From Amycolatopsis roodepoortensis (GTDB lineage Bacteria > Actinomycetota > Actinomycetes > Mycobacteriales > Pseudonocardiaceae), in NCBI RefSeq assembly GCF_014873915.1, contig NZ_JADBEJ010000005.1, positions 2,232,001 to 2,296,000 of the forward strand: a stretch of 64,000 bases of DNA. The letters run 5' to 3'. Shown here piece after piece: positions 7,677 to 53,922 of this stretch (the stretch's first letter is position 1; every line of letters begins with the position of its first letter). The translations under genes and the position numbers were made by a program. Under the pieces are notes generated by a model. That model ran no database searches and was not told the DNA's origin. It was given only the letters and a program-made list of their open reading frames with translations.

Positions 7677-10061
7677 ATGCGAAGGTTCCAGCGCGGTCTC
7701 GTGCTGCTCACGGCGGCCTTGGCGGTGTCGAGCGTGACGACGGGGGTCTCGTCGGCGGACGAGCTCGGCCGGTCACGGGCGGTGATCCGGTACACCGAGT
7801 ACGGCATCCCGCATATCGCGGCGAAGGACTTCGACGGGCTCGGCTACGGCTACGGGTTCGCCGCGGCCAAGGACAACATCTGCGAACTCGCGAACACCTA
7901 TCTGACGGTGTCCGCGCGGCGGTCCGCGTACCTCGGCGCGGGCGGCCAGGGCAACCCGGCGATGAGCGAGGCGGAGAACAACCTCGACAGCGATCTGCAC
8001 TTCCAGCGGATCAACGACTCGGGCGTGGTCGAGCGGCTGCTCGCCCGGCCCGCGCCGCACGGCCCGCGGACAGAGGTGCGGGAGCTGGCGGCCGGCTACG
8101 TCGCGGGTTACAACGCGTACCTGAAACAGACCGGCGTCCAGCGCATCACCGATCCGGTCTGTCGCGGCGCGGACTGGGTCCGGCCGATCACCGAACTCGA
8201 TTTCTACCGGCACTTCTACGCCGTCACGTCGGTCGCCGGGCAGGGCTTGCTCGCCTCCGACCTCGTCCGCACCCAGCCTCCGTCCACAAAGGACGCTTCC
8301 GTCGCGGGGCCGGAGTCGGCGCCGAAAATCGCCGACGGGCTCCGGAGGACCATGAAGACCGGCGAACTCGGCAGCAACGGTATCGCCGTCGGCGGAGACG
8401 GGACGAAGTCCGGCGGTGGCCTGCTGCTCGGGAACCCGCACTATCCGTGGCAGGGCGGTCGCCGGTTCTGGCAGTCGCAGCTGACCATTCCCGGCCGGTT
8501 CGACGTCGCGGGCGGAAGCCTGTTAGGGCTCCCGATCCCGCAGATCGGCCACAACGCCGACGTCGCCTGGACGCATACGGTGTCGACGGCGATCACGTTC
8601 GGTCTCTTCGAAGTGCCGCTGTCACCCGGCGACCCGACGACGTACCTGGTGGACGGGAAACCCGAGAAGATGACCGCGCAGGAGGTGAAGGTCGAGGTCC
8701 GCGAGCCGAGCGGCGAGCGACGGCAGGTCGCCCGCACCTTCTACGGGACACGGTACGGCCAGGTCCTCGGTTCGGCGTTCGGCGTGCCCACGCCGTGGAC
8801 GGCGAAGTCCGCGCACGCGCTGCGGGACGGGAACGCCGGTAACCTGCGCGGCCTCAACACCTGGTTCGAACTGGCCGGAGCACGCGGCACCACGGACGTC
8901 GCCAACGCGCTCGCGCGCACCCAAGGCGTCCCGTGGGTCAACACCATCGCCACGGACAGGGCCGGGAACGCGCTCTACAGCGACATCCAGGTCGTCCCGC
9001 ACGTCACCGACGAGCGGGCGGCGGATTGCGGGACCGCGCTGGGCCGGGCACTCTTCCCCGGCACCGGTCTCTCCATTTTGGACGGTTCGAAGTCGTCGTG
9101 CGACTGGGGTTCCGACCCGGGTTCCCTGGAGCCGGGGCTGTTCGCGCCGTCCCGGCTGCCGCTGCAACAGCGACGCGACTACGAACTCAACGCCAACGAC
9201 AGTGCCTGGCTTTCCAACGCCCGCGCACCGATCGCGCCGCTCCCCCGGATCGTCGGCTCGACCGGCACTCAGCGGTCGGACCGGACGCGGGAAGCGCTCA
9301 TCGCCACCGAAGAGGGCTTGGCGGGCAAGGGATTCACGCCGTCGTCGATGAAGGACATGCTGTACCGCGACCGAAGCCGCACGGCCGAGCTCGCGTCCGC
9401 CGACACGGCCGAGATGTGCGCGGCCTTCCCCGGCGGCCAGGCTCCGTCCTCGTCGGGGCCGGTGCCCGTCGGCAACGCCTGCGCGACGCTGGCCTCCTGG
9501 GACCGCACGTTCCGGCTCGACAGCCGCGGCGCGCTGTTCTTCGAGCGGTTCGTGGACCGGATCGGCGGCCTGCGCGGCATCTGGCAGGTCCCGTTCGACC
9601 CGAACCGGCCGGTCACCACCCCGAACACCCTCGCGACCGGGAATCCCGACGTGCAGAAGGCCTTCGGTGACACGCTCGCGGAGTTCCGCGCCAACGGCAT
9701 CCCGGTCGACGGCAGGCTCGGCGACCACCAGACGGTGACCAGGGCCGGCCAGAGGATCCCGATCCACGGCGGGCCGGGCGACCTCGGCGTGCTCAACGTG
9801 ATCACGGCGCAATGGGATCCGGCCAAGGGCAATCACGAGGTCGGGCACGGATCCAGCTACGTGCAGGTGGTCGGGTTCAGCGGCAAGGCCGCCTGCCCGG
9901 ACGTCTCGACGATCATGACCTACTCGCAGTCGACCGACGTCACGTCACCGCATTTCGCCGACCAAACGCGGCTGTACTCGCGGGGCGGCTGGGTGCGGGG
10001 ACGCTTCTGCGCCGCGGACATCGCGCGGTCGCCGGAGCTACGGGTGGTGAGGCTGCGCTAG
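7677..10061 (+). CDS. Secreted penicillin acylase family protein (aculeacin A / AHL acylase type)
   Basis: A 794-residue Ntn-hydrolase precursor. The frame opens at 7623, but the ATG at 7677 directly follows GGGGGAACG and begins a signal peptide (MRRFQRGLVLLTAALAV to VSSADE). Domains in order: alpha chain (YTEYGIPHIAA, YGYGFAAAKDNICELA), linker, then the self-cleavage site GSNGIAVGG with the nucleophile at Ser233 and the diagnostic stretch LLGNPHYPWQGGRRFWQ, IGHNADVAWTHTVSTA. This pattern fits lipopeptide deacylases and N-acyl-homoserine-lactone acylases (AAC, AhlM, PvdQ) better than penicillin G acylase. It would remove fatty-acyl chains from amides outside the cell. A 21-bp-period repeat array begins 16 bp after the stop. 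Confidence 0.92.
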   Translation: MRRFQRGLVLLTAALAVSSVTTGVSSADELGRSRAVIRYTEYGIPHIAAKDFDGLGYGYGFAAAKDNICELANTYLTVSARRSAYLGAGGQGNPAMSEAENNLDSDLHFQRINDSGVVERLLARPAPHGPRTEVRELAAGYVAGYNAYLKQTGVQRITDPVCRGADWVRPITELDFYRHFYAVTSVAGQGLLASDLVRTQPPSTKDASVAGPESAPKIADGLRRTMKTGELGSNGIAVGGDGTKSGGGLLLGNPHYPWQGGRRFWQSQLTIPGRFDVAGGSLLGLPIPQIGHNADVAWTHTVSTAITFGLFEVPLSPGDPTTYLVDGKPEKMTAQEVKVEVREPSGERRQVARTFYGTRYGQVLGSAFGVPTPWTAKSAHALRDGNAGNLRGLNTWFELAGARGTTDVANALARTQGVPWVNTIATDRAGNALYSDIQVVPHVTDERAADCGTALGRALFPGTGLSILDGSKSSCDWGSDPGSLEPGLFAPSRLPLQQRRDYELNANDSAWLSNARAPIAPLPRIVGSTGTQRSDRTREALIATEEGLAGKGFTPSSMKDMLYRDRSRTAELASADTAEMCAAFPGGQAPSSSGPVPVGNACATLASWDRTFRLDSRGALFFERFVDRIGGLRGIWQVPFDPNRPVTTPNTLATGNPDVQKAFGDTLAEFRANGIPVDGRLGDHQTVTRAGQRIPIHGGPGDLGVLNVITAQWDPAKGNHEVGHGSSYVQVVGFSGKAACPDVSTIMTYSQSTDVTSPHFADQTRLYSRGGWVRGRFCAADIARSPELRVVRLR

Positions 10062-10077
10062 GCGCGTGATCACGCGC

Positions 10078-10200
10078 GTAACTCGCGTGATCAGAGGCGT
10101 AACTCGCGTGCTTGGAGGCGTAACTCGCGTGATCGGACGCCGCACACCCGTGTGCTGCCTCCAGACACGTGAGATACGCCTTTGATCACGCGAGTCACGC
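10078..10200. repeat. Fold-back array of 21-bp units (copy 1)
   Basis: Three direct units starting at 10078, 10099 and 10120, each beginning GTAACTCGCGTG, are followed by reverse-complement units ending at 10177 and 10198. Unit boundaries mirror exactly about position 10148 (10120 with 10177, 10099 with 10198). The array lies between the convergent acylase and DUF4233 genes. It is not translated as a gene. It could fold into a long hairpin in RNA or a cruciform in DNA; a terminator role is inferred. Confidence 0.8.
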
Positions 10201-10223: not shown

Positions 10224-10622
10224 CTACTGCGGTTGCTGTTGCTGGCTGGGCAGTGTCCCGGCCGCCATCCGCCGCGCCACATCGCGGCGCAGCCACAGGA
10301 GCCACAGCCAGATCCCGAGGAAGATCACCCCGAGGATCGCGACGGCGGGCAGCGCGACGAAAAAGGCGATCAGCGCGACCTGCAGGACGAGCACCGCGGG
10401 CACCGCCCACGGCTTCTTCAGGAAACCGCACAGCACGATCAGCGCGACCGCGATGACGATCACCGACCAGCCGGTGAACGAGCCGACACCGCCGCCGAGC
10501 TTCGCCACCACGGGCAGCGCGAGCGCGACGGTGATGCCCTCCATGATCAGCGAGCCCGCCATCACGCCCCGGAAGGACTTCATCGGGTCCTTGGCGGGCG
10601 GTTTCGGGGTTTCGTCGGTCAC
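10224..10622 (-). CDS. DUF4233 membrane protein
   Basis: A 132-residue integral membrane protein with about four hydrophobic helices (around residues 18-40, 46-68, 73-92 and 93-112) and a glutamine-rich C-terminus. It is recognised by FRGVMAGSLIMEGITVALALPVV and by its place immediately after folC, the arrangement found across actinobacteria. The GTG start overlaps the folC stop (GTGA, 4 bp), so translation is probably coupled. Function is unknown; the constant partnership with folC suggests a link to folate metabolism or only shared expression. Confidence 0.93.
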   Translation of the reverse strand: MTDETPKPPAKDPMKSFRGVMAGSLIMEGITVALALPVVAKLGGGVGSFTGWSVIVIAVALIVLCGFLKKPWAVPAVLVLQVALIAFFVALPAVAILGVIFLGIWLWLLWLRRDVARRMAAGTLPSQQQQPQ

Positions 10623-13981: not shown

Positions 13982-14029
13982 CCTCGTGAGTGGTAAGGAC
14001 GGTTAGAACCGTCCTTACCACTCACGAGG
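13982..14029. terminator. 48-bp perfect palindrome, probable bidirectional terminator
   Basis: Two 23-bp complementary arms (left arm begins CCTCGTGAGTGG) surround a 2-nt centre. It fills the whole gap between the stop of the SGNH lipase (13978) and the stop of convergent valS (14030). A second, slightly diverged copy lies at 51658-51705, so it is a dispersed repeat family rather than a one-off terminator. There is no U-tract, as usual in high-GC actinomycetes. Confidence 0.75.
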
Positions 14030-26045: not shown

Positions 26046-26182
26046 GTTGCGAAAGCCACTTTCGCAACGTTGAAGGTTGCGAAAGTGGCTTTCGCAACGT
26101 CGGCGGAGGTGGCGACTAGCCCGCCAGACGTCGCGAAAGCCACTTTCGGGACATCCGACGTCCTGAAAGTGGCTTTCGCGAC
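26046..26182. repeat. Four 23-bp palindromes in two pairs (copy A)
   Basis: Palindromes at 26046-26068, 26076-26098, 26130-26152 and 26160-26182. The first two have perfect 10-bp arms GTTGCGAAAG and its complement around a 3-nt centre. The second two are GTCGC-flanked variants with mismatches in one arm. Within each pair the starts are exactly 30 bp apart and the centre is CCA in one and TGG in the other, so each pair is itself an inverted repeat. They fill the gap between convergent fdhD and the carotenoid oxygenase gene. Confidence 0.85.
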
Positions 26183-35701: not shown

Positions 35702-37780
35702 ATGACCGTCGCCGTAACCCGGTCCGGGGACACGGGGGAATCGTCCGAGAGAAGACCGAGACGCGGTGTGCCCAACCCGCGTCTCCCGTTGCCGGTGGTC
35801 TCGGTGCCGACGGTGCTGCTGTTCGTCGGCGGCGCCATGGTCTGGACGGGCGCCACCTGGCTGGTCGTCAACGAGGCCGCGCCGCTCTGGGTGACCATTC
35901 CCCTGCACGCGCTCGTCACCTTCACCATGTTCACCGTGCTGCACGAGTCGACGCACCACGCGGCCGGCCGGCTCACCTGGGTCAACGAACTGCTCGGCAG
36001 GCTCGCGATGCCGTTCGTGGCGGTCTACGGCTCCTTTCCACTGGTGCGCTACATCCATCTGGAGCACCACCGCAACACCAACGAGGACGCCCACACCGAT
36101 CCCGACGCCTGGACCGCGCACGGCCCCTGGTGGCAGCTGCCGTTGCGCTGGCTGACCATCGACTTCTGGTACGCCCGCTTCTACGTGGCGCGGCAGCGCA
36201 CGCGGCCGCCGTCGGAGCGGGCCGAGACCGCGGCCGCCGTCACGCTGAGCCTCGCCGCGTTCGCCTGGCTGACGGTGAGCGGCCACGGCTGGGAACTGCT
36301 GATGGTCTACCTGATCCCGCAGCGCGTCGGGCTGGCCGTGCTGGCCTGGTGGTTCGACTGGCTGCCGCATCACGACCTCGGCGCGCAGCGGCAGAACCGG
36401 TTCGGCGCCACGCGCGTCCGCGTCGGGCTCGAATGGCTGATGACGCCGATCATGCTGTGCCAGAACTACCACCTGGTGCACCATCTCCACCCCGCGATCC
36501 CGTTCTACCGCTACCTGCGCACGTGGCGGGACAACCGCGAGGCGTACCTCGCCAGGGACGTTCCGATCGCCACCCCGTGGGGCCGCGAGCTGACGTCGTC
36601 GGAGTACCGCGAATGGCGTCAGCTCACCGATTCGTTCGACGAGGAGCCGCCCGCGCCCCAGCCTCGGCAGCCGAGCCGCTTCCACTCGCTGCGGGTCGCC
36701 GAGGTCCGGCCGCTGTGCGAGGGCGCCGTCACCGTGACGTTCGACGTCCCGGAACGGCTCCGGGAGACCTTCCGGTTCACCCCCGGCCAGCATCTCGTCA
36801 TCCGCGCGGAGGTCGACGGGGAAGAGGTGCGGCGCGCCTACTCGATCTGCTCGACGCCGGACTCCGGTGTGCTGCGGATCGCGATCAAACATCAGCTCGG
36901 CGGCGCGTTCTCGACGTTCGCCACCACGGAACTCGCGGCGGGCGACGCACTGGACGTCCTGCCGCCGGACGGGGAGTTCACGCTGACCCCGGCGCGGAGC
37001 CGCGCCGGCCGGTACGTCGCGCTCGCCGCGGGCAGCGGGATCACGCCGATCCTCTCGATCCTGACCGCGACCCTGCAGGACGAGCCGAACAGCAAGGCGA
37101 CCCTGCTCTACATCAACACTTCCGGGGCCAGCACGATGTTCGCCGGCGAACTCGCCGCCCTCGCCGCGAGGCTGGGCGGGCGGCTGCACGTGGTGCACTA
37201 CCGTACCGACGAACGCGACCCGGATCTGCGCACGCAACGGCCCGAGCGGCCGTTCGACATCGTCGGCGAGGCGCTCGCCATCTCGCACGAGCGCTACCAG
37301 CGCGGCCGTCTGGACGGCACCCGTCTCCGCGCGCTGCTGCAGTCGCGGCTGCACCCGGCGAAGGTGGACGAGTGGTTCCTGTGCGGCCCGCGCGACCTCG
37401 TCGACATGGCCCGCCGGACCCTCGCGGACCGCGACGTCCCCGAGGAGAACGTCCACTTCGAACTGTTCCAGGGCGCGCTGCCCGTCCGCCCCTCGCGGCG
37501 GCCGGGCTCGACGCTGACGGTGACCGCGGGCGGGAAGACCGCCGAAATCCCGGCGACGGTGGGCGAAACCGTGCTCAGCGCCGCGCTCCGGCACGGCGTC
37601 GACGCGCCGTACGCGTGCGTCGGCGGGGCCTGCGGCACCTGCCGGGCGACGGTGGTGCGGGGCAGCGCGCGGATGGACGTGCACTACGCGCTCGGGGACG
37701 ACGAGGTCGCGGCGGGGCGGATCCTGACCTGCCGGGCGGTGGCCACCTCCCCCGAACTGGCCGTCGACTACGACCGCTGA
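35702..37780 (+). CDS. Self-contained membrane desaturase/hydroxylase fused to FNR-type reductase and [2Fe-2S] ferredoxin
   Basis: A 692-residue three-part fusion. The ATG at 35702 follows GAGGGGA. Residues about 30-310 are a membrane fatty-acid-desaturase-type di-iron domain with histidine boxes HESTHH (81-86), HLEHHRNTN (119-127) and NYHLVHHLHP near 255. Residues about 318-590 are a ferredoxin-NADP reductase-like domain (FTPGQHLVI, RAYSICSTPD, ALAAGSGITPILSIL, EWFLCGPRDLVD). The C-terminus is a plant-type ferredoxin with ACVGGACGTC (Cys near 639, 644, 647) and a later cysteine in LTCRA. Electrons could pass from NAD(P)H to the di-iron site within one chain. Lipid, carotenoid or small alkyl substrates are all possible. 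Confidence 0.92.
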   Translation: MTVAVTRSGDTGESSERRPRRGVPNPRLPLPVVSVPTVLLFVGGAMVWTGATWLVVNEAAPLWVTIPLHALVTFTMFTVLHESTHHAAGRLTWVNELLGRLAMPFVAVYGSFPLVRYIHLEHHRNTNEDAHTDPDAWTAHGPWWQLPLRWLTIDFWYARFYVARQRTRPPSERAETAAAVTLSLAAFAWLTVSGHGWELLMVYLIPQRVGLAVLAWWFDWLPHHDLGAQRQNRFGATRVRVGLEWLMTPIMLCQNYHLVHHLHPAIPFYRYLRTWRDNREAYLARDVPIATPWGRELTSSEYREWRQLTDSFDEEPPAPQPRQPSRFHSLRVAEVRPLCEGAVTVTFDVPERLRETFRFTPGQHLVIRAEVDGEEVRRAYSICSTPDSGVLRIAIKHQLGGAFSTFATTELAAGDALDVLPPDGEFTLTPARSRAGRYVALAAGSGITPILSILTATLQDEPNSKATLLYINTSGASTMFAGELAALAARLGGRLHVVHYRTDERDPDLRTQRPERPFDIVGEALAISHERYQRGRLDGTRLRALLQSRLHPAKVDEWFLCGPRDLVDMARRTLADRDVPEENVHFELFQGALPVRPSRRPGSTLTVTAGGKTAEIPATVGETVLSAALRHGVDAPYACVGGACGTCRATVVRGSARMDVHYALGDDEVAAGRILTCRAVATSPELAVDYDR

Positions 37781-37796: not shown

Positions 37797-37975
37797 GTAT
37801 CTCACGTGACTGGATGGACGACACGCGTGATCAGACGGACGACACGCGTGATCAGTGGGACGACACACGTGTCCAGGCGGACGACTCGCGGCGGACCCGG
37901 CCGCACACGCGTGTCGTCCAGCCAGTCACGTGTGTCGTCCGTCTGATCACGGGTGCCGTCCGTCTGATCACGACG
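37797..37975. repeat. Fold-back array of 21-bp units (copy 2, GACGACACG variant)
   Basis: Direct units start at 37817, 37838 and 37859, each beginning GACGAC and containing a CGTGATCAG-type core. Reverse-complement units end at 37918, 37939 and 37960. Boundaries mirror exactly about 37888. The unit text differs from copies 1 and 3, but the 21-bp period, the fold-back symmetry and the CGTGATC core are shared. It starts 17 bp after the desaturase stop. The rest of the 356-bp gap to the kinase holds a solo 23-bp palindrome and no gene. Confidence 0.8.
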
Positions 37976-38136: not shown

Positions 38137-39672
38137 ATGGCACCCGGTCCGGTCCCGACCACCGGCCCGCGCCGGTGGATCCGGCCCGGGCGGCTTTCCC
38201 TGCGCGCCAAGCTGACCGGCTCGATGGTGCTGCTGCTCACCTTCGTCTGCCTGGCGATCGGCGTCTCCGGCGAGATCGCCTTGCGGTCGTTCCTCACCCG
38301 CCAGATCGACGACCAGCTCTCCGCCGCGTCGGCCCGCGCCCACGACTTCGCGAGCCGGCCGCCGGAGGACGGTCTCGGTCCCAATCCGCTCAACGCGCCC
38401 GGCCAGGCCTCCGGGACGCTGAGCGTGCGCGTGTCCGGCGACCGCGTTCTCTACGCGGGAGTCCTTACCGTGCAAGGACTTCCCCAGGGGCTGTCGGCCG
38501 AGCAGGAGTCCGGCCTGTTCTCCATCCCGGCGGACCGGCCGCCGATGACGCTGACGATCGGCGGGCTGGGCGACTACCGCGTACAGGCCGTCACGATTCC
38601 CGGCGGCGTGGTCGTCACCGGGCTTCCGCTCGCGCCGATGCAGGACACCCTGACCACCGTCCGGTGGATCCTGTTCGGGGTCGCGGCGGCGGGCGTCACC
38701 GGCGCCGGGTTCCTCGGCGCGTTCGCGGTCCGGCGCACGCTGCGGCCGCTCGACCGAGTCGCGGCGACCGCGGGCCGGGTGTCGGCGATGCGGCTCGACC
38801 GCGGCCAGGTCGCGCTTTCCGTGCGGGTGCCCGAGATCGACACCGATCCGCGGACCGAGGTCGGCCAGGTCGGTTCGGCGCTGAACCTCATGCTCGGGCA
38901 TATCGCACGGGCGCTGGAAGCACGGCACGCCAGCGAGACCCGGGTCCGCCGGTTCGTCGCCGACGCGAGCCACGAGCTCCGCACCCCGCTCGCGGCGATC
39001 CGCGGGTACGCCGAACTCGCGGGCCGCGGCAGTGCGCTGGCGCCGCCGGAGATCGTCGCCCATTCGATGGCGCGGATCCAATCCGAGGCCGCGCGGATGA
39101 CGACCCTGGTCGAGGACCTCCTGCTCCTGGCGAGACTCGACGCGGGACGCCCGCTCGAAGCGAGTGAGGTCGACCTGGCCCGGCTGGCGGCGGACGCGGT
39201 CGGCGACGCGCATGTCGCCGGTCCGGACCACCGGTGGGAACTGCGGCTCCCACCGGTTCCCGTACTCGTCCGCGGTGACGTCCAGCGTCTGCACCAGGTA
39301 CTGGCGAACCTGTTGTCCAACGCGCGCACGCACACCCCGCCGGGCACCACGGTGATCACCGCGCTGACCCGCTCGCACGGCGGGGCCGCGGTGCTCACCG
39401 TCACCGACGATGGCCCCGGTATCGCTCCCGAACTCCTGCCGAGCGTGTTCGAACGGTTCGCCCGCGGCGACTCCTCCCGCTCCCGGACGGCGGGCGGCAC
39501 CGGGCTCGGGATGGCGATCGCGTCGGCCATCGTCGTGGCGCACCACGGCTCGATCGAGGTGCACAGCCGTCCGGGACACACCGAGTTCGCGGTCCGGCTG
39601 CCGGTGATCGGATCCTCACAGCGGGTGCACAGCTTCGGCACAACCACACCCCAGGTCGGCCCCCGACGCTGA
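38137..39672 (+). CDS. Membrane sensor histidine kinase
   Basis: A 511-residue two-component sensor, ATG at 38137. The first helix is near 27-47 (LTGSMVLLLTFVCLAIGVSG), an extracellular sensor of about 125 residues follows, the second helix lies near 172-196, then a HAMP linker (RRTLRPLDRVAATAGRVSAM). The dimerisation site is ASHELRTPLAAIRGYAEL with His279; the ATPase has VLANLLSNARTHTP, DDGPGIAPELLPSVFERFARGD and GGTGLGMAIASAIV. This is the TrcS/TcrY-like class. No response regulator is encoded next to it in the window. Only 4 bp separate it from the downstream glycosyltransferase gene, so it heads that operon. Confidence 0.94.
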   Translation: MAPGPVPTTGPRRWIRPGRLSLRAKLTGSMVLLLTFVCLAIGVSGEIALRSFLTRQIDDQLSAASARAHDFASRPPEDGLGPNPLNAPGQASGTLSVRVSGDRVLYAGVLTVQGLPQGLSAEQESGLFSIPADRPPMTLTIGGLGDYRVQAVTIPGGVVVTGLPLAPMQDTLTTVRWILFGVAAAGVTGAGFLGAFAVRRTLRPLDRVAATAGRVSAMRLDRGQVALSVRVPEIDTDPRTEVGQVGSALNLMLGHIARALEARHASETRVRRFVADASHELRTPLAAIRGYAELAGRGSALAPPEIVAHSMARIQSEAARMTTLVEDLLLLARLDAGRPLEASEVDLARLAADAVGDAHVAGPDHRWELRLPPVPVLVRGDVQRLHQVLANLLSNARTHTPPGTTVITALTRSHGGAAVLTVTDDGPGIAPELLPSVFERFARGDSSRSRTAGGTGLGMAIASAIVVAHHGSIEVHSRPGHTEFAVRLPVIGSSQRVHSFGTTTPQVGPRR

Positions 39673-44726: not shown

Positions 44727-45578
44727 ATGTCGGGGCGCACGGGAATCCTGGACGGCGTGAATCGGCCGTACCGCTGGGATCTCGTGCGCCCCGACCAGCT
44801 CGGGACGCTACTGGAACGCGCCGGAAAACCGTCGCTGTGGTTCCTGGACGAGCTGATCGAATGCGCCGCGAAGGTGATCGCCCGTGCCGGTGACGCGGAT
44901 CTGTACTTCGTCGGGCGCTCGGCGGACAGCGTGCACGATCTGCTGAGCGGAACTCCTTGGCGGGAAAGGATCCACCAGTTGCCGCTGTCGTTCGCCGGGG
45001 TCTACTCCGGACTGAATGAGTCCGATGTGGACACTCTGCGCGGCTATCTCGCTTCGGTGGGGCTGAGCCCGCACGACCTGGCCCGCGGGCGGCCGAAGGT
45101 GTTCGTCGACCTCGTCTACACAGGACAGACGTTCACCGAGCTCTACGGCTTTCTGCGGCGCTGGATCGAGGACGAACGCGAGGCCTGGAGCATCATCCGC
45201 GGACGGCTCCGGTTCCTCGGGATCACCATCCGCGAGGACACGAGCCCGACGGCGTTCCGCTGGCAGCAGCAGTTCGGCTGGCCCGCCGACCTGCCCGCGA
45301 ACGGCGTCCGGAACATCTCGCTCGACGAGCCGGTCTGGTCCTACTTCGGCAACACGCAGCCCAAGCTCACGGCGTCGTTCCCGCGGCCGCGCTGGTCGGA
45401 CGAGAACGGTCGCGCGCCGGAGCATTCGGACAAGCGGCTGCAGGGGCTGGCCGAGGCGGTCGCGATCGTCGAGGCGGGCCGCTCGAAGGCGGGGCGGGAC
45501 CTGCTGGTGCGGCATCTGCGGAAGGAACCGGCGATGGCGGAGAGCTGGCTGCGGACGCTGATCACGCGCCTGCGCTGA
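44727..45578 (+). CDS. Hypothetical phosphoribosyltransferase-like protein
   Basis: About 283 residues from ATG 44727; an in-frame GTG at 44757 is an alternative and neither has a strong ribosome site. DADLYFVGRSADSVHDLLSG near 50-68 looks like a PRTase-type first strand and loop. KVFVDLVYTGQTFTELYGFL near 123-142 resembles the PRPP loop, with the acidic pair reduced to one aspartate. No hydrophobic helices, so cytosolic. I do not recognise a named family. It follows the GT39 gene by 13 bp and may belong to that operon, or be carried along. A 21-bp-period array starts 10 bp after the stop. Confidence 0.72.
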   Translation: MSGRTGILDGVNRPYRWDLVRPDQLGTLLERAGKPSLWFLDELIECAAKVIARAGDADLYFVGRSADSVHDLLSGTPWRERIHQLPLSFAGVYSGLNESDVDTLRGYLASVGLSPHDLARGRPKVFVDLVYTGQTFTELYGFLRRWIEDEREAWSIIRGRLRFLGITIREDTSPTAFRWQQQFGWPADLPANGVRNISLDEPVWSYFGNTQPKLTASFPRPRWSDENGRAPEHSDKRLQGLAEAVAIVEAGRSKAGRDLLVRHLRKEPAMAESWLRTLITRLR

Positions 45579-45587
45579 CCCCTCCCC

Positions 45588-45741
45588 GTGACTCGCGTGA
45601 TCGAAGGCGTAACTCACGTGCTTGGAGGCGTAACTCACGTGATTGAAGGCGTAACTCGGGTGGTGCGCCTCCGATCACGCGAGTTACGCCTTTAATCACG
45701 CGAGTTACGTCTCTGATCACGCGAATTACGCCTCCGGTCAC
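45588..45741. repeat. Fold-back array of 21-bp units (copy 3)
   Basis: Direct units start at 45588, 45609, 45630 and 45651 (core GTAACTCACGTG). Reverse-complement units end at 45687, 45708 and 45729, with a partial one after. Boundaries mirror exactly about 45669. Unit sequence is nearly that of copy 1 at 10078. It lies in a 265-bp gap between the PRTase-like gene and the PP2C gene; the remainder (45742-45843) holds only the PP2C leader with GAGGAG. Confidence 0.85.
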
Positions 45742-45843
45742 GAGGGCGGGACCGACAGCCGTCCGACACCGAACCCTCAGGTCGCCCACAGGATCAAGGC
45801 GCACCCTGGAAGCAGGGAATCACCCAGGGGTGAGGAGAAGACC

Positions 45844-46542
45844 ATGAGGGAGCTTCCGCACTGGCACACGGCGAGCGCGCAGGGGCCGCGCGAACACAAC
45901 GCGGACGCCGTCGCGGCGTACGCGACCCCGGGCGGCCGGGGGATCGTGTTCGCCCTGGCCGATGGAGTCGGAGATCACCCGAACGCGGCACGTGCGGCGC
46001 GGACGGCCGCCTCGGCGGCGTCCAGGACGCCGGTCGAGCAAGGGGCGGCCGGGGCCGTTCTCGCTGCTCAGCGGGCCGTGCTCGCTCTCGGCGAGGCCGG
46101 TGACTGCGTCCTCGTCGTGGCCGTGCGGACCGACGAGGGGTATGGCATCGCGTGGGTCGGGGACGCACGGGCGTACGCTTGGGACGGTTACACCGTGCGG
46201 CAGGTGACGAAGGACCATACGCTCGCGCAGTACTTCCGCGACCACGGACAACCCGTGACACCGCGGATGGAACACGTCGTCACCACCAGCGTCCGCACGG
46301 CCGGTGCGCACGAGATCGGCACGGCCACCGTCACGACCGGCGGGCTCGTGCTCACCAGCGACGGTGTGCACAAGACGCTCAGCGGGCCGACCATGCTCGA
46401 CATCCTCGGGATGCCGGACAGGGCGGCCACCGAGCTGGTGCGGACGGCGATCTCGCTCGGTGGCTCCGACAACGCCACCGCGCTCGTGGTGGATCCGCCC
46501 GGCGCGGACGTCACCACGGAAAAGTTTCGCGTCGCGGCCTGA
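45844..46542 (+). CDS. Small PP2C-type Ser/Thr protein phosphatase
   Basis: A 232-residue cytosolic metal-dependent phosphatase. Motifs: REHNADAVAAY (the acidic site after an NxD pattern), FALADGVGDHPNAARAA (37-53), WVGDARAYAW, LTSDGVHK and LGGSDNATALVV, which supply the Mn/Mg ligands. It is shorter than PstP-type enzymes and has no membrane helix or extra domains. It could reverse Ser/Thr kinase phosphorylation; the STK at 56135 is the only kinase of that kind in the window but is distant. The ATG at 45844 follows GAGGAGAAGACC. Confidence 0.92.
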   Translation: MRELPHWHTASAQGPREHNADAVAAYATPGGRGIVFALADGVGDHPNAARAARTAASAASRTPVEQGAAGAVLAAQRAVLALGEAGDCVLVVAVRTDEGYGIAWVGDARAYAWDGYTVRQVTKDHTLAQYFRDHGQPVTPRMEHVVTTSVRTAGAHEIGTATVTTGGLVLTSDGVHKTLSGPTMLDILGMPDRAATELVRTAISLGGSDNATALVVDPPGADVTTEKFRVAA

Positions 46543-46551
46543 ACCGGGCGG

Positions 46552-47016
46552 TCAGGCCGCGACGCGATCCCGTTTGAGCTGCCGGTACTCGCGCAGGACG
46601 AGCACGACGATCACCACGTCGAGGGCGGCGAAGAACGGAAGCGCGAGCGAGTGCGTGTGGATCGCGCGGAAGATCTCGTAGACCACGAAGGCCGAGAGCA
46701 CCACGGCGGCGACGGGGTAGGCTCGCATCACCTTCTTCGCCAGCGCCCAGACCAGGCCGAGTTTGACGAGCCCGTGCGCCACGAGGTACACGACGGCGAA
46801 CGTCCGGCCCTCGGCGAAGTGACCGGCGGCGAGTTCGAGGTGCCGGGCCAGCGTCCCTTCGGGGTCGCCGAGCAGGTCGCGAGTGACCACGGCGTGCGCG
46901 AAACCGGAGATGACCGACGCCGGCACGATCAGCAGGACCAGCCCGCCGGCCAGCTGCAATGCGCCGTCGAGCCCCTTCAGGGTGATGGCGATCCGGAACA
47001 GCTTCTCGGTGCTCAT
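46552..47016 (-). CDS. DUF2127 membrane protein
   Basis: A 154-residue protein with about four helices. The frame is open to 47352, but ATG 47016 gives MSTEKLFRIAITLKGLDGALQLAGG, the family's typical start. Further blocks: ARHLELAAGHFAEGRTFAVVYLVAHGLVKLGLVWAL, AYPVAAVVLSAFVVYEIFRAIHTHSLAL, and a basic C-terminus. Function unknown in the family. It converges on the PP2C gene 9 bp away. Confidence 0.88.
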   Translation of the reverse strand: MSTEKLFRIAITLKGLDGALQLAGGLVLLIVPASVISGFAHAVVTRDLLGDPEGTLARHLELAAGHFAEGRTFAVVYLVAHGLVKLGLVWALAKKVMRAYPVAAVVLSAFVVYEIFRAIHTHSLALPFFAALDVVIVVLVLREYRQLKRDRVAA

Positions 47017-51650: not shown

Positions 51651-51657
51651 TCATCAG

Positions 51658-51705
51658 CCTCGTGAGTGGTTAGGACGGTTAGAACCGTCCTTGCCACTCA
51701 CGAGG
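51658..51705. repeat. 48-bp palindrome, second copy
   Basis: Nearly identical to the hairpin at 13982, with the same 2-nt centre and two changes in the stem. It starts 8 bp after the aldo-keto reductase stop. The 115 bp from it to the M48 gene should contain that gene's promoter. Probably the operon's terminator. Confidence 0.75.
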
Positions 51706-51820
51706 CTCTGGGCTTTCGCAGGTCGCGGGCGTAGCCCTTTGTTCTCGCCCGAGCCCGCTGCGTAGCCGGTTACTATTCGGCCGCACAGACGGCACTTGTG
51801 CGAAAAGAGGTAACCGGACG

Positions 51821-53736: not shown

Positions 53737-53898
53737 GTTGCGAAAGCCACTTTCGCAACCTTCAACGTTGCGAAAGGGCATTCGCAACGCAGCCGCCAGA
53801 GGCGAGCCTGCGCCGACCGTCGCCCGAGGACGGCCCTCCGCGCACGTCGCGAAAGCCACTTTCGCGACGCCTGACGTCCCGAAAGTGGCTTTCGCGAC
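53737..53898. repeat. Four 22/23-bp palindromes in two pairs (copy B)
   Basis: Elements at 53737-53759, 53767-53788, 53846-53868 and 53876-53898. The layout matches the cluster at 26046: a GTTGC-flanked pair then a GTCGC-flanked pair, starts 30 bp apart within each pair. The spacer in the first pair (CTTCAAC) is the exact reverse complement of the corresponding spacer at 26069-26075 (GTTGAAG). The second element has lost a base. They lie between the convergent M48 and methyltransferase genes. Confidence 0.85.
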
Positions 53899-53922
53899 AT
53901 GCCGCTCCGGCAGGCCCGCCCC

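Follow-up and report, generated by a model that had tools for sequence, protein, structure and literature searches.

Phased 21-bp fold-back arrays behind stop codons in Amycolatopsis, candidate hairpins of transcript ends

What is the role of a strictly periodic, self-complementary array placed directly behind a stop codon? The question is raised by positions 45587-45742 of a 64,000-nucleotide stretch of the Amycolatopsis roodepoortensis genome (the window), where 21-bp units in direct orientation are followed by inverted ones. Our preferred reading, to which we give a probability of about 0.6, is that this array and its relatives are genus-specific hairpins of transcript ends, devoid of a U-tract, often bidirectional and acting as terminators, as 3′ barriers or as both.

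The array at 45587-45742 and its sisters

The array (45587..45742, no strand assigned) was delimited by repeat and inverted-repeat analysis and by RNA folding, and is composed of units which we call type A. Direct repeats at 45587, 45608 and 45629 are spaced by exactly 21 bp. In the best register, a direct arm (45596..45662, plus strand; units 45596-45616, 45617-45637 and 45638-45658) and an inverted arm (45676..45742, minus strand; units 45680-45700, 45701-45721 and 45722-45742) are separated by an apex at 45663..45675 (no strand), a 13-nt loop, which is spanned by a degenerate unit (45659-45679). The mirror sum of this 67-nt pair is 91338 and those of four further inverted pairs are offset by multiples of 21. 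The first-pass annotation had described a single, perfectly phased hairpin. The phase is indeed exact, but the best pair is only 84% complementary and the hairpin is therefore imperfect. In a lag scan of the window, high-scoring positions number 253 at lag 21, 25 at lag 42 and 5 at lag 15, with none at any other lag from 10 to 59. The predicted RNA fold of the array reaches −115 kcal/mol (z −14.4; 0 of 200 shuffles as good), and the minus strand of the array together with pieces of two sister arrays gave z-scores of −12.2, −9.0 and −4.5 against shuffles.

The array is preceded by a gene without a Pfam match (44727..45578, plus strand), whose TGA ends 10 bp before the first unit as originally placed, and is followed by a gene for a PP2C-type phosphatase (45844..46542, plus strand). 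No curated Rfam family reached its gathering score in the window and no terminator-like site was detected within 45000-46500. A 41-bp inverted repeat at 46527-46567 overlaps the ends of two convergent genes. It is identical in the relative G223 and present as related versions in G054 and G183, and hence appears as a conserved, site-specific hairpin, unlike the families described below, which are swapped.

Two sister arrays with the same phased fold-back design are present in the window, in agreement with the first-pass annotation. One (10065..10200, no strand) carries the same type A unit and is located between convergent genes: a penicillin amidase-family gene on its left (7677..10061, plus strand; start from the codon-model caller) and a small gene (10224..10622, minus strand) matched in 60 of the 60 genus genomes searched. 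The other (37805..37972, no strand) has a related unit, CGGACGACACG plus CGTGATCAGA, defining type B, and is located between tandem genes, a desaturase/ferredoxin-reductase fusion gene on its left (35795..37780, plus strand) and a histidine kinase gene on its right (38137..39672, plus strand), both with uncertain starts. The proposed distance of 10 to 17 bp between stop codon and array was recovered for all three (10, 17 and 17 bp). The consensus units are GGCGTAACTCGCGTGATCNGA for type A and CGGACGACACGCGTGATCAGA for type B. They have the 10-bp half CGTGATCAGA in common, while the 11-bp half is type-specific. In the G223 gap orthologous to position 119644 of the 400-kb stretch around the window, inspection by eye showed a one-armed mixed array with type A units and, after them, a type B half, so that the 10- and 11-bp halves look modular.

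Copies, phase and position relative to genes

A BLAST search with the array located type A in at least 40 places of the 9.1-Mb genome (82 matches, each place being matched on both strands; 40 of 133 initial candidates scored). We parsed 47 arrays (41 of type A, 6 of type B) from the 400-kb stretch and from 38 shorter stretches around matches; type A arrays were picked by similarity to the array at 45587-45742 and type B is therefore undersampled. Both unit orientations, with up to 5 mismatches per unit, occur in 46 of the 47. Neighbouring units on the same strand are exactly 21 bp apart in 137 of 144 cases for type A and 28 of 30 for type B, and two of the nine off-phase spacings are 42. Some positions of the unit are nearly invariant and others are free.

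Genes were called with our own codon-model caller. A flanking stop codon was found for 43 of the 47 arrays, within 25 bp in 31 and within 60 bp in 40. Stops lie at a median of 10 bp from an array (69 distances), starts at a median of 119 bp (25 distances). The arrays are found between convergent (26), tandem (17) or divergent genes (4); for comparison, the 400-kb stretch has 35 convergent, 110 tandem and 63 divergent gaps measuring 40 bp or more. The first-pass annotation had expected many copies in constant phase at the 3′ side of genes, which is what the genome holds; neither a scarcity of copies nor the lack of a positional bias, which it had named as fatal to its proposal, was encountered. 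The same applies to coding repeats: these were ruled out since none of the 47 arrays was flagged inside a called gene and since stops occur in one frame of the unit. In 11 of the 47 the stop codon overlaps the edge of the array (for example L031:3295 and L058:3422), with the outermost unit supplying TAA in seven cases and the unit supplying TGA in two.

For the 47 arrays, the predicted RNA folding energy, computed without shuffles, has a median of −85.2 kcal/mol, the weakest fold reaching −45.8. In the sense of the gene, the first 10 nt beyond the array contain 2.0 T on average and 5 at most (69 array ends), and the T content a few bases further is that of the background (mean 1.5 for both). 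The placement behind stop codons is terminator-like, in line with one of the possibilities initially raised (a multi-register terminator), but the base composition that follows includes no U-tract.

Among the matches listed, with at most 4 candidates scored per genome, type A occurs in 9 of 200 family genomes, all of them from the same genus (represented by 11 genomes), and in none of the 189 others, on the assumption that the list was sorted by kinship. Within 80 genus genomes, again among the matches listed and with kinship ignored, 38 have type A and 39 have type B; both occur together in 37, A alone in 1, B alone in 2 and neither in 40. No 21-bp phased array was detected in 200-kb stretches of another genus (G016) and of a distant Amycolatopsis (G202), which include 2 and 11 long inverted repeats, respectively. 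A plasmid or phage origin was also considered and rejected, type A having no match in plasmid or phage collections.

Different palindrome families between conserved flanks

The 21-bp arrays are part of a larger set of long 3′-end palindromes. Five 400-kb regions, from A. roodepoortensis and four relatives (2 Mb), were scanned de novo for long inverted repeats and yielded 187, of which 105 are located in convergent, 65 in tandem and 9 in divergent gaps and 8 inside genes. The A. roodepoortensis region alone includes 49, compared to 0, 0 and 0 in three 400-kb sequences simulated with an order-3 Markov model. In addition to the arrays, there are dispersed families which we labelled in this analysis by their stem words (GTGAAGG, GCGAAAG, GTGAGTGG, TTTAGTCC, TGTGTGG and others), and some hairpins are confined to a single site; 30 of the 187 are singletons. 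In the window, GTGAGTGG-family palindromes of 48 and 52 bp are located at 13982-14029 and 51656-51707, each at most 5 bp from a stop codon. Palindromes of the GCGAAAG family (GTTGCGAAAGCCACTTTCGCAAC plus a variant with GTCGCG) are found at 26046-26098, 26130-26182 and 53842-53902. Members of this family are often paired, 84-120 bp from start to start. At two convergent sites of the 400-kb stretch, 82527 and 179641, both outside the window, genes of relatives overlap where A. roodepoortensis has GCGAAAG elements, as if these had been inserted.

We compared orthologous gaps of at least 25 bp between A. roodepoortensis and each relative, using reciprocal best hits and conserved neighbours. The counts are site-by-species comparisons to which one A. 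roodepoortensis site may contribute as many as four times and in which weak stems are disregarded, and the orthologous sites of five related genomes are not independent. Of the convergent gaps with a dispersed hairpin in A. roodepoortensis (n=44), 16 have a hairpin of that family in the relative too, 15 have one of a different dispersed family there and 3 a unique hairpin; the remaining 10 have none. With a unique hairpin (n=17), the relative has a hairpin in 10, a dispersed family in 1 and none in 6, and with no hairpin (n=20) the relative has one in a single case and none in 19. In tandem gaps, a dispersed hairpin (n=19) corresponds to the same family in 10, another in 5 and none in 4; a unique one (n=8) to a hairpin in 1 and none in 7; and an empty gap (n=274) to a hairpin in 9 and none in 265. 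The divergent comparisons are composed of 3 gaps with a dispersed hairpin (same family in 1, none in 2) and 140 without (hairpin in 3, none in 137). Site 161104 of the 400-kb stretch has four different states among the five genomes, and at the nine orthologous sites inspected the flanks are conserved around unrelated hairpins.

The site at 45587-45742 behaves in the same way. Named orthologues of its upstream gene (44727..45578), 86-92% identical, were found at six loci, in Amycolatopsis keratiniphila, A. decaplanina, A. oliviviridis, A. azurea, A. orientalis and Amycolatopsis sp. WAC 01376. Seven relatives retain both flanks; A. orientalis is not among these, its contig stopping 284 bp past the gene. 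Three of the seven carry type A (A. keratiniphila; A. oliviviridis, whose arms have a single clear unit each; and G183, with one arm only), one carries type B (WAC 01376, again one arm only) and three carry an unrelated hairpin of the GTGAGTGG family (A. decaplanina, G054 and A. azurea, the last imperfect and identified by eye). The one-armed arrays of G183 and WAC 01376 include no long inverted repeat. The hairpin of one relative at this site measures 46 bp.

Could the palindromes be purely selfish? REP- or MITE-like elements might insert at many places and be retained chiefly behind stop codons since they would be harmful elsewhere, any effect on transcripts being incidental. Their many copies, the patchy distribution of both types across the genus among the matches listed, the two GCGAAAG-containing gaps in which the genes of a relative overlap, and the occurrence in places of several families at one site are all in keeping with this. 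We nevertheless judge it unlikely, since at convergent gene ends the presence of a hairpin is kept while its family differs (34 of 44 gaps, against 1 of 20 for gaps without a hairpin in A. roodepoortensis), since inspection of nine sites by eye revealed no clean empty site with a target duplication for type A or B, and since neither a Y1_Tnp match in the genome nor a plasmid or phage match to type A was found.

The number of elements per gap bears on the same alternative. With the GCGAAAG family excluded, two or more elements occur in 5 of the 179 convergent gaps of the five genomes, where 16.2 are expected (P = 0.009 in A. roodepoortensis, 0.05 in G213, 0.03 in G054, 0.19 in G183 and 0.075 in G223); this exclusion was chosen post hoc, after the pairing of the family and its adjacency to other hairpins had been seen. 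With GCGAAAG included there are 14 of 179 against 21.3 expected (P = 0.46, 0.05, 0.016, 0.19 and 0.44 in the same order), and in A. roodepoortensis itself 6 multi-element gaps against 6.6 expected. The 554 tandem gaps show the opposite, over-dispersed pattern, in line with selfish insertion (11 with two or more elements against 4.5 expected; 5 against 2.8 without GCGAAAG). Given this and the post hoc exclusion, a tendency toward one element per gap, which would argue against selfish spread, is restricted to convergent gaps with GCGAAAG left out, where it is suggestive.

Hairpins at transcript ends and comparison with known systems

Position, predicted folding and the persistence of a hairpin of changing identity at convergent gene ends together point to a role of the hairpin at the ends of transcripts, in either direction between convergent genes. 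The fold-backs at gene ends would then probably mark where the copies of genes end. The hairpins would form at the 3′ ends of transcripts, often in common for two convergent genes, and the arrays could serve as bidirectional, perhaps factor-aided, terminators, as barriers to 3′ exonucleases or as both. Types A and B would be two among several palindrome families with the same task that substitute for each other at orthologous gene ends. Both termination or 3′ protection and the growth of arrays by duplication of units are what we infer from the sequences; arms that lengthen and shorten by whole 21-bp units would explain the exact phase as well as the unequal unit numbers.

Several observations count against transcript-end hairpins. 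Nested unit pairs (75 pairs from 38 loci) are complementary at 16.92 of 21 positions, compared to 16.86 for pairs permuted between arrays (z 0.41); covariation of the arms, suggested by a first parse (nested identity 0.779 against 0.715), was dropped after this cleaned test. Tandem arrays have no wobble bias in the mRNA sense (64 G-U against 66 A-C mismatches). To these are added the one-armed relatives, the 4 of 47 arrays between divergent genes, the missing U-tract and the pile-ups in tandem gaps. The first three would be reconciled with a transcript-end function if the arrays are young, with units drawn from a common pool and arrays turning over before compensatory changes accumulate. Repeated sites bound by a protein, a possibility also raised at first, with a spacing of two helical turns and a fold-back symmetry that is incidental or used for bridging, would suit the regular same-strand spacing, the mixture of near-invariant and free unit positions, the arms without covariation and the one-armed arrays, yet are very unlikely, since the other families at orthologous sites lack the 21-bp unit and since the position of the arrays is tied to stop codons.

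If the arrays are hairpins of transcript ends, repeat families could be used to locate these ends in a high-GC actinomycete, in which U-tracts guide poorly, and their turnover could be traced across numerous orthologous sites. The presence of unlike hairpins within conserved flanks makes the evolution of transcript ends, by insertion, exchange, or decay and rescue, testable site by site, and the unit numbers per arm provide a natural series for relating stem length to termination or RNA stability. A bolder view, which we consider improbable, is that gene ends are cassettes: a dedicated process would swap hairpin families at the same stop codon, one trans-acting factor would handle both 21-bp types, and the signals of transcript ends would change through the exchange of ready-made repeats and not through point mutations.

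The open-access literature includes, among the matches listed, no description of these array sequences; a full-text lookup of repeat words returned, again among the matches listed, one short word in papers with unrelated titles. To this extent the initial impression of an undescribed family stands. The arrays are not singular in kind, other palindrome families replacing them in relatives. Inverted repeats after stop codons have been reported (PMC13155455), and bacterial stem-loops at large prefer convergent gaps (PMC1590033).

REP sequences and BIMEs of the GTAG and CGTC superfamilies are likewise dispersed palindromic repeats, located mostly 3′ of genes, where the neighbouring ORFs are unidirectional or convergent, and several types are present in some genomes (PMC3733652, whose main text mentions neither Amycolatopsis nor Streptomyces nor Actinobacteria). 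The arrays resemble them in being dispersed, intergenic and biased toward 3′ ends, and the REP-like nature first considered is retained as regards placement. It fails as regards the transposase: no RAYT gene (Y1_Tnp, PF01797) was matched in the A. roodepoortensis genome, in a search whose control was positive in 5 of 14 genomes. Moreover, the 21-bp unit GGCGTAACTCGCGTGATCNGA is non-palindromic and, from the consensus, carries no GTAG or CGTC end tag; CGTC does occur internally in the inverted units of type B. Identity with REP/RAYT systems was thus ruled out on the tested features, a Y1_Tnp match and a tagged palindromic unit.

Pairs of DNA uptake sequences (DUS), in which a short repeated word in inverted orientation forms a terminator hairpin (PMC2267715), provide another parallel. 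The arrays differ from them in having a 21-bp unit, repeated within each arm, and in being interchangeable with unrelated families. Of a canonical intrinsic terminator, the arrays have the stable predicted stem-loop just behind the gene but not the U-tract after the stem. Closer in this respect are the terminators of Streptomyces, described as long, very stable, GC-rich and U-poor hairpins behind genes (PMC12207403), which the arrays resemble as long and stable predicted hairpins followed by few T. The parts of PMC12207403 considered here describe neither dispersed repeat families nor phased arrays; the Amycolatopsis arrays have both, with a T content close to background. Although they are without the tested REP features, the arrays would work like a REP/BIME or like a U-less terminator.
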